Part shown: positions 25,055-28,911 of the stretch, piece after piece
Layout of the letters: each line of letters begins with the position of its first letter
Position numbering within the stretch: position 1 is the stretch's first letter
Assembly (NCBI GenBank): GCA_016793245.1
Contig: JAEUHW010000008.1
Span: 1-34,329 of the forward strand
Source of the DNA: Planctomycetota bacterium
GTDB taxonomy: Bacteria > Planctomycetota > UBA1135 > JADKAF01
Reading direction: 5' to 3'
DNA: 34,329 nucleotides
The notes under the pieces: generated by a model
What the model saw: the letters and a program-made list of their open reading frames with translations, nothing else
Database searches by the model: none
What the model was told of the DNA's origin: nothing
Made by a program: the position numbers and the translations under genes

Positions 25055-25594
25055 TCAGTGCGGCTCGGGATCGACGCCGAGCGCATCGGCGACGCGATTG
25101 ATGTAGGCGAAGTACGCGGCCACCTGCGCGGCATCGTGCAGCGCCGCGTCACTGAAGCCTCGCGCACGCAGCGCTTCCACGTCGGCGCGCGTGCAGGCCG
25201 CGGGGGTGCGGGCGATCTTCTCGCACCACGCGAGCAGCGCGCGTTCGTCCTCGCTCCACGTCGTGGCGCTCGCGTAGCCGGCCTCGATCTCGGCCGCTCG
25301 CTCCGGTTGTTCGACCTCGGCACGGAGGTCTTCCAGGTGGGCTGCGATTCAGTAATGGCAGTCGTTGGCCTGGCTCACGACCACGGCGATCGCTTCGCGC
25401 AGCGCACGCGAGAGCGGCGACGGCGCGTGCATCGCGGCGGCGTAGAGGCCCATCGAGGCTCGGAGCGTTCCGGGCGAGAGGCTCATCAAGCGCACGATGT
25501 TCCAGACCTTGCCGGCGCTCGCTGCGCGCGCGTCGTAGAGCTGCTTCAGGGCGCCGGTGGCATCGGCGGGTGCGATCGTGTGGATGTAGGCCAT
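25055..25594 (-). CDS. AhpD-like (carboxymuconolactone decarboxylase family) selenoprotein with in-frame UGA
   Basis: The product is 179 residues read through one in-frame TGA (25351-25349, codon 82). The start is ATG 25594 with a strong GAGGAG ribosome binding site, 23 bases after the epimerase stop. Residues 1-81 match peroxidase-related CMD/AhpD proteins (YDARAASAGKVWNIVRLMSLSPGTLRASMGLY, LREAIAVVVSQANDCHY). The family's redox motif is CxxC-x3-H. Here the sequence reads C79-H-Y-TGA-I-A-A-H86, so TGA stands exactly where the second Cys belongs. After it the same frame continues in family-like sequence (EDERALLAWCEKIARTPAACTRADVEALRARGFSDAALHDAAQVAAYFAYINRVADALG) to a normal stop. A SECIS-like hairpin follows the TGA. 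Predicted role: thiol/selenol peroxidase or reductase in the cytoplasm. A nonsense mutation or sequencing error is the alternative. Confidence 0.88.
25303..25336 (-). promoter_or_regulatory. SECIS-like hairpin downstream of the in-frame UGA
   Basis: Minus strand: 18 bases after the TGA, GACCTC (25330-25325) and GAGGTC (25318-25313) form a perfect 6-bp stem with loop CGTGCC. A lower 4-bp helix, CTGG (25336-25333) with CCGG (25306-25303), is separated by an internal loop. The apical loop begins 24 bases after the UGA and has G as its second base. This agrees with the published general model of bacterial SECIS elements (loop about 16-37 bases from the UGA, G within the first two loop bases). It would be bound by SelB. 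Confidence 0.7.
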
Positions 25595-25617
25595 GCGAGC
25601 TCCTCGCGGGTTCGTCG

Positions 25618-26571
25618 CTATCCTGCGCCCGCGCGATGCGAGGTGAAAGCGGCGCAGAGCGCCGTCGCCGGATCCCAGCGCGGGCGATAGCTCAGCAGCT
25701 CGCGCGCGCGGGCAGAGGAGAGCGTGCGCTCCTCCGTGGCGAAGCGCAGCAGGACGGGCTCGATCGCGCTCGCGTCGGCGGAGTCGATCGGTGTCCAGCG
25801 GGGGCTGCAGGCGAGCTCTGTCGCGACGAGCTCCAAGAGCTCGCGATAGCGCAAGCGCCCCGGAGCGGTGAAGTGGAACGCTCCCGTGGCTCGCGTCACT
25901 TCCGCGAGCGCGCGGATGCCGGCGGCGGCGTCGTTCACGTGCACCAGCTCGATCGCGACGCCGTCGTCCACGAGTCGCGGCACGCGATGGTGGAGCACCG
26001 CGCCCGCGATCTGTTCGAGGCAGCGCGAGCGGCCGTTCGCGATCAAGGAGGGGAGCCGCGCGATCGCGAGGCGCTCGCCGAACGCGCTCGCCGCGGCGCG
26101 CTCGGCGGCGAGCTTGCTCGCGCCGTAGGGCTCCTCCGGACCGAGCGCCTGGGTCTCGTCCGCGTCGCGGAAGGCACCCGATGCGTAGACCGCCGCCGTC
26201 GAGACGAGCACGAAGCGCGCGACGCCGGCGCGCGCCGCGGCCGTCGCGAGGCGCTCCGTGCCGCGCGCGTTCACCTCCTCGAGCTCGGCGGGGGAACCCT
26301 CGAGCCGCGCGGCGGCGTGGATGATCCCGTGCACGCCTTCCACGGCGCGCGCGATCCCCGCCTCGTCGCCTAGCGAGCTGCGCAAGATCTCCGCAGAGAA
26401 CCCGGTGCACGCGCGGCGATGCTCGAGCACGCGAACGTGCAGGCCGGCGCCCAGGAGCTCGGCAACGAGGGCGCGGCCGAGGAGACCGGAGGCGCCGGTC
26501 AGCAACCAGCGCTCTGGATCCTGGGAGCCCGCCCTTGGCTGGCTTCGCTCCGCCGGGCAAGCTCTGCCCAA
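25618..26571 (-). CDS. NAD-dependent epimerase/dehydratase (extended SDR)
   Basis: The product is about 317 residues. The Rossmann motif TGASGLLG comes near residue 25, the extended-SDR catalytic motif is VSTAAVYASG with YGASK (Tyr-x3-Lys), and HAAARLEG occupies the usual position after beta4. The substrate is unknown (nucleotide sugar, or a 3-beta-hydroxysteroid/dihydroflavonol-type ketone). The start is unclear: there is no ATG or GTG close to the Rossmann strand, so TTG 26571 is proposed and TTG 26589 is possible. The latter would overlap the divergent radical SAM start at 26584. The frame is open for another 1.5 kb upstream as a shadow of that gene. It lies 23 bases before the AhpD-like selenoprotein gene, so both are probably one transcript. 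Confidence 0.88.
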   Translation of the reverse strand: MGRACPAERSQPRAGSQDPERWLLTGASGLLGRALVAELLGAGLHVRVLEHRRACTGFSAEILRSSLGDEAGIARAVEGVHGIIHAAARLEGSPAELEEVNARGTERLATAAARAGVARFVLVSTAAVYASGAFRDADETQALGPEEPYGASKLAAERAAASAFGERLAIARLPSLIANGRSRCLEQIAGAVLHHRVPRLVDDGVAIELVHVNDAAAGIRALAEVTRATGAFHFTAPGRLRYRELLELVATELACSPRWTPIDSADASAIEPVLLRFATEERTLSSARARELLSYRPRWDPATALCAAFTSHRAGAG

Positions 26572-28835: not shown

Positions 28836-28911
28836 TGGAGCGGGCGAAGGGACTCGAACCCTCGACATTCAGCATGGGAAGCTGACGCTCTACCAACTGA
28901 GCTACGCCCGC
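28836..28911 (-). tRNA. tRNA-Gly (anticodon CCC)
   Basis: This 76-base cloverleaf includes an encoded CCA. The acceptor arms GCGGGCG (5' end at 28911) and CGCCCGC pair fully. The D arm is GCTC-AGTTGGTA-GAGC. The anticodon stem TCAGC/GCTGA encloses the loop TTCCCAT, giving anticodon CCC for GGG codons. The T arm is GAGGG-TTCGAGT-CCCTT with one G-T pair, then discriminator T and CCA. It lies 59 bases after the minus-strand PA0069-like gene, with its own promoter candidate in between. Confidence 0.97.

Follow-up and report, generated by a model that had tools for sequence, protein, structure and literature searches.

In a 34,329-nt stretch of planctomycete DNA (the window), we identified a minus-strand gene with one internal TGA codon that is very probably decoded as selenocysteine (Sec), yielding a 179-residue protein predicted to be an AhpD-like selenol/thiol peroxidase (Table 1). 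An earlier note, made from the letters of the window, had located one in-frame TGA where the second cysteine of a CxxC motif belongs and had read both sides of it as one frame of 179 residues, and both statements were confirmed. The TGA is the sole internal stop between the ATG at 25594 and the terminal TGA (25057-25055), and it lies in a CxxU motif with a histidine four residues on (C79-H80-Y81-U82-x3-H86). With Cys put for Sec, the protein scored 129.9 bits against the NCBIfam model TIGR01926 (peroxid_rel, 'peroxidase-related enzyme'; cut-off 81.8) in one match that runs across the TGA from residue 4 to residue 178, and the window protein scored 53.6 bits against Pfam CMD (cut-off 23). A probable ribosome-binding site is present, as had been claimed, and so are Cys79 and His86, but the conserved glutamate is Glu67 and not Glu68 as the earlier note had it. 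An epimerase-family gene upstream on the same strand ends 23 bases before the selenoprotein gene, and the two are possibly co-transcribed. The window also holds a tRNA-Gly(ccc) gene (28836-28911, minus strand).

Table 1. Features of the predicted selenoprotein gene and its surroundings (window coordinates)
Feature	Position	Strand	Details
AhpD-like (TIGR01926) selenoprotein gene	25055..25594	-	179 aa, one internal TGA
TGA codon 82, predicted Sec	25349..25351	-	second position of CxxC (CHYU); aligned with solved relatives
Cys79 codon, first position of CxxU	25358..25360	-	Cys in 129/130 class loci, the remaining one N-masked
Glu67 codon, relay glutamate	25394..25396	-	Glu in 130/130 class loci; spacing as Glu118 of M. 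tuberculosis AhpD
His86 codon, relay histidine	25337..25339	-	His in 130/130 class loci; spacing as His137 of M. tuberculosis AhpD
Predicted SECIS hairpin	25313..25330	-	6-bp stem GACCUC/GAGGUC, loop CGUGCC (25324-25319), -8.1 kcal/mol
GAGGAG, probable ribosome-binding site	25600..25605	-	5 bases between its end and the ATG
NAD-dependent epimerase family gene	25618..26529	-	PF01370, 98.3 bits; start codon not settled

The strongest solved relatives by sequence were 6k40, 2oyo, 3c1l, 2prr and 2pfx, and in all four printed alignments (6k40, 2oyo, 3c1l and 2prr) the TGA lies opposite the second CxxC cysteine. An AlphaFold model (Cys for Sec, 19-row alignment) had a pLDDT of 93.5 and its best PDB match was 6k40, described as an alkyl hydroperoxide reductase of D. 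radiodurans R1 (TM 0.92). This Cys-type AhpD-like protein shares the fold, 34% identity (Foldseek), a CxxC that overlies the CxxU and the conserved His and Glu, but it has Cys at the second position where the window protein has predicted Sec. A D. radiodurans strain without its AhpD-like protein, which we infer to be the protein in 6k40, is described in a review as H2O2-sensitive and as poorly complemented by CxxC mutants (PMC8945050). The proton relay residues reported in PMC3141380 are Glu118, Cys130, His132, Cys133 and His137 for M. tuberculosis AhpD, and Glu36, Cys48, Tyr50, Cys51 and His55 for PA0269; as given there, both sets have the same spacing as Glu67, Cys79, Tyr81, Sec82 and His86 of the window protein. 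Compared with M. tuberculosis AhpD, the window protein keeps the five relay positions at the same spacing, His132 being replaced by Tyr and Cys133 by Sec, while the fold match of the model to that protein (1lw1) is weak (TM 0.57).

We then examined how widely the TGA is kept. At E <= 1e-10, the gene was matched in 122 of 154 genomes of the same planctomycete class, representing 74 of 87 genera; 32 of the 154 had no match at this threshold, and so the gene is not universal in the class. Among the 150 class matches listed (130 loci, 19 further loci and L174, which was listed without a stop), the codon in the residue-82 column was TGA in 149 and TGC (Cys) in one, L174. Two weaker class copies outside the listed matches, L182 and L019 (the latter from the window's own genome), also have TGC in this column, and the three class Cys copies are 32-36% identical. 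The alphaproteobacterial loci L020 and L021 have TGT at the Sec column, and the only finds of a contig search with the window protein were two distant Cys forms from alphaproteobacteria. Other residues are kept as well: Glu67, Ser74, Tyr81 and His86 each occur in 130/130 class loci, and Cys79 in all except one where it is hidden by N. Since the TGA coincides with the second CxxC cysteine of solved relatives and recurs in all but one of the listed class matches, its placement is not due to chance.

This pattern bears on whether the TGA could be an ordinary nonsense mutation or a sequencing error in a dying gene. The assembly is a draft, and in the protein record of the nearest public relative found, P0002 (83% identical), the Sec column reads Gly, so the position can differ. 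The earlier note had looked to relatives for the same TGA, an expectation that held for all but one of the listed class matches but not for P0002, in which a real loss of Sec and an assembly error are both possible. Against a decaying gene stand the recurrence of the same codon across the class, the lack of any stop within the 74 codons preceding the Sec site in all 160 TGA rows tested, and the constraint on synonymous sites downstream (see below). We consider this explanation very improbable.

In a phylum-wide sample, the gene was matched in 203 of 392 genomes drawn. The Sec column read TGA in 163, TGC in 7, TGT in 4, CTC in 1 and TTG in 1 of 176 rows, a tally in which some places occur twice and several stopless rows were chosen deliberately, so that it is not a phylum frequency. 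The 13 rows without TGA thus encode Cys (11) or Leu (2) and never Trp. One of the Leu codons (CTC) belongs to L180; the other (TTG) to L183 (G222:C155:90881-96033), from another family of the phylum, where adjacent tandem copies carry TGA and TTG at the Sec column. The first in-frame stop past the Sec site is itself TGA in the window gene and in 93 of the 161 TGA-type rows in which a stop was visible, which means that TGA also terminates these genes. These observations speak to another reading, in which the TGA would be decoded as a different amino acid, through a tryptophan code or leaky read-through. One public homologue, P0003, is indeed written with Trp at the site. However, a codon that also ends the genes, a site at which Trp is never encoded in the rows without TGA, and the presence of Sec machinery and a SECIS-like hairpin leave this reading with hardly any probability. 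Pseudogenisation, sequencing error and TGA as Trp were therefore set aside, on the basis of class-wide conservation and the use of TGA as the terminal stop.

The Sec reading in the earlier note depended on a decoding machinery in the same genome. Indeed, although the window's assembly is a draft (7.57 Mb, 458 contigs, 89.6% complete), selA, selB, selD and tRNA-Sec were all found in it, each over its curated cut-off. The tRNA-Sec (78.8 bits, C163:91904-91996) was also called at the same locus by ARAGORN as tRNA-SeC with anticodon tca; selA (499 bits) and selD (339 bits) lie on the same contig, C163, and selB (319 bits) on contig C79. The SelA protein is 98% identical to a public SelA recorded as from a Planctomycetes bacterium (P0026), which agrees with a source in that phylum. 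The selD gene (L194, C163:90384-91307) has its own in-frame TGA in CSG-TGA-AAKM, presumably the usual Sec site of selD, and is itself a predicted selenoprotein gene. Among 14 control genomes, tRNA-Sec exceeded the cut-off in 5, selA in 1, selB in 2 and selD in 2. Because the tRNA-Sec model gave matches at E <= 0.001 in all 14 controls, only 5 of which were over the cut-off, counting was restricted to matches over the cut-off. By this measure tRNA-Sec was present in 139 of the 154 class genomes and below the cut-off in 15, and one further genome reached just 47.8 bits. Nine of these 16 genomes without a strong tRNA-Sec match (maximum 47.8 bits) carry the TGA gene. SelB was over its cut-off in seven of the nine, with weaker matches only in the other two, and the missing tRNA-Sec is therefore likely due to incomplete assemblies.

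Bacterial Sec insertion would also need a SECIS element, and a predicted hairpin lies just downstream of the TGA. The published bacterial SECIS model, as described in PMC13188914, has a loop of 3-9 nt with a G at its first or second position, an upper stem of 4-16 bp, a UGA-to-loop distance of 16-37 nt and a minimum free energy of at most -7.5 kcal/mol. The window hairpin agrees with these constraints (a 6-nt loop with G at position 2 and U at position 3, a 6-bp stem, a distance of 24 nt and -8.1 kcal/mol), while the N1-N2 pair present in most loops of the model is not formed. For comparison across relatives we used 157 of 163 TGA rows (six identical or N-bearing rows were dropped), divided into group 1 (n = 141) and group 2 (n = 16). 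In group 1, all six stem pairs are formed in 93 rows, five in 36, four in 5 and fewer in 7. The mean was 5.47 pairs at this stem compared with 3.74 at the next best offset tried and a median of 2.29, and 135 of the 141 rows have G as the second loop base.

The stem overlies the conserved residues DLRAEV, and therefore synonymous codon choice is the telling test. In 117 class loci, codons within the hairpin were biased relative to the same amino acids elsewhere in these genes: Leu+8 is CTC in 112/115 (43% elsewhere), Arg+9, in the loop, CGT in 97/114 (9%), Ala+10 GCC in 55/66 (43%), Glu+11 GAG in 112/113 (75%) and Val+12 GTC in 53/69 (46%). The other columns between -12 and +19 are mostly closer to background, exceptions being Ser-8 (AGC in 74/117, against 37% elsewhere) and Glu+14. 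As the rows are related, no P values are given for these biases. The Glu+14 codon, outside the hairpin, is GAA in 30 of the 42 class loci with Glu, compared with 25% elsewhere, a preference that may reflect a need to stay unpaired; the window itself has CAA (Gln) there (25309-25307).

Pair 23-36 occurs as C-G in 98 rows and T-A in 21, and was paired in 125 of 141 group 1 rows against at most 116 in shuffles. Pair 20-39, which is absent in the window itself, occurs as C-G in 44 and G-C in 40 and was paired in 103 of 141 against at most 82. The remaining five of the six stem pairs did not exceed shuffles in the 141 rows; three of these barely vary, and the other two are disrupted in 18 rows (21-38) and 24 rows (22-37). 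Judged from sequence comparison, this putative element is a conserved hairpin with constrained synonymous sites that fits the published bacterial SECIS model.

Group 2 comprises the 16 rows with HH within five residues past the TGA (HHRRGLRR type). These have GGT-CTG at codons +7/+8 in 14/16 and, in 13/16 printed folds, a hairpin with the loop GGUCU, compared with CGUGCC in the group 1 loop of the window. Sixteen of the 19 further class loci are also of the HHRRGLRR type, and no copy of this type was found in the window's own genome at E <= 0.001. A tree was built from 126 of 181 rows, namely 107 Sec rows left from 162 by thinning, 15 Cys rows and 4 others; its bootstrap values had not settled. 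In this tree the HHRRGLRR rows, 10 in number, cluster next to five Cys rows. Besides 95 Sec rows, the main group contains P0004 (Cys), P0003 (Trp) and P0002 (Gly), the last being sister to the window protein. The Sec label requires six changes on the tree, which implies that exchange between Sec and Cys happens, but rarely. P0004, written with Cys in its public record, looks like a late change from Sec to Cys (support 94/77). Taken together, the predicted Sec form is widespread in the phylum and falls into two paralogue groups with different putative SECIS loops.

The earlier note had expected standard annotation to break the gene, and this seems to be so. According to their protein records, 13 of 23 public homologues contain nothing but the part that follows the Sec position, and one stops just short of it. 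That 14 of the 23 resemble half genes suggests that public annotation hides or breaks these selenoproteins.

We take Cys133 of M. tuberculosis AhpD to be the attacking residue, and on this basis Sec82 rather than Cys79 would attack the substrate. In the mechanism that we propose, SelB, loaded with Sec-tRNA-Sec, would recognise the hairpin located 24 bases beyond the UGA and direct the insertion of Sec, which at this codon is very likely. The Sec82 selenol, activated via a Glu67-Tyr81-His86 relay, would then reduce peroxide. The product would be resolved by Cys79 with formation of a Se-S bond, which a dithiol donor of the lipoamide or thioredoxin type would re-reduce. Peroxidase activity is predicted here by analogy with 6k40 and from the relay residues. 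Alternatively, the selenoprotein could have a different main job, as a dithiol/selenol reductase, as an adaptor for another peroxidase or in acting on another substrate such as a halogenated compound, as Bmp8 does. In line with this, the CMD-fold debrominase Bmp8 is among the solved relatives (sequence E 4.2e-5, fold TM 0.83-0.84), AhpD has an adaptor role for AhpC according to PMC3141380 and PMC8945050, and the relative PA0269 is reported to have weak peroxidase activity (PMC3141380). However, the closest solved match by both sequence and fold is D. radiodurans 6k40, the H2O2 sensitivity that follows loss of the D. radiodurans AhpD-like protein (PMC8945050) points to peroxide, and all five AhpD relay positions are kept. 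We regard a different main function as unlikely, though far less so than the two readings of the TGA set aside above, and favour the peroxidase.

The gene neighbourhood did not settle the substrate. We clustered ORFs over 162 TGA loci, some of them overlapping and with flanks of unequal length. ORFs related to M1 aminopeptidases recur in 39 of these loci, and 31 have an ORF for a 171-aa protein that matches no Pfam family; in some members of the class (e.g. L097, L101 and L109), ORFs of both kinds are found upstream with the same orientation. The largest cluster, with 42 loci, runs over peptidase ORFs on the opposite strand; we judged its members to be shadow ORFs and rejected it. Across the 162 loci and the window, no neighbour gene fixes the substrate or gives a firm functional clue.

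AhpD-like CxxU selenoproteins were, as the earlier note stated, already known elsewhere. The family was listed with 27 sequences as COG2128 in the Sargasso Sea data of 2005 (PMC1088965), as AhpD-like 1 with 299 sequences in the GOS data of 2008 (PMC2398784), and as an AhpD-like protein (TIGR01926, CxxU) in a 2026 selenoprotein catalogue (PMC13188914). The catalogued family has the TIGR01926 assignment, the CxxU motif and a single Sec in common with the window protein. Since it has been catalogued since 2005, the window gene adds a member to a known family. The same catalogue lists NF041238, an AhpD-related (seleno)protein (CFYUT), with CxxU. Both proteins have an AhpD-type domain, but the NF041238 model has 357 positions and the window protein scores 74.1 bits against its cut-off of 175, so it is not a member. 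The main texts of PMC13188914, PMC1088965 and PMC2398784 all lack the string 'Planctomycet', and PMC4807772 describes planctomycete selenoproteins with no mention of AhpD in its main text. In the part of the literature covered by our searches, we found neither class-wide dominance of Sec nor two SECIS types for this family. What is new here is that the predicted Sec form dominates a planctomycete class and occurs in two paralogue groups with different candidate SECIS loops.

The broader proposal, to which we give an even chance, is that the class has a near-obligate Sec-dependent AhpD-like peroxidase with its SECIS within DLRAEV, alongside a second Sec paralogue with GGUCU in place of CGUGCC. 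One SelB would then have to recognise both loops. If this is true, selenium supply would limit peroxide defence across the whole class, and the proteins of the class would mostly be listed in databases as broken halves. The alignment of these genes offers a large natural data set on the way in which one stretch of bases can serve both as a SECIS and as protein-coding sequence. In most selenoprotein families Cys forms exist as well; the near-constant TGA here (149 of 150 listed class matches) suggests a site at which sulphur may be inadequate.
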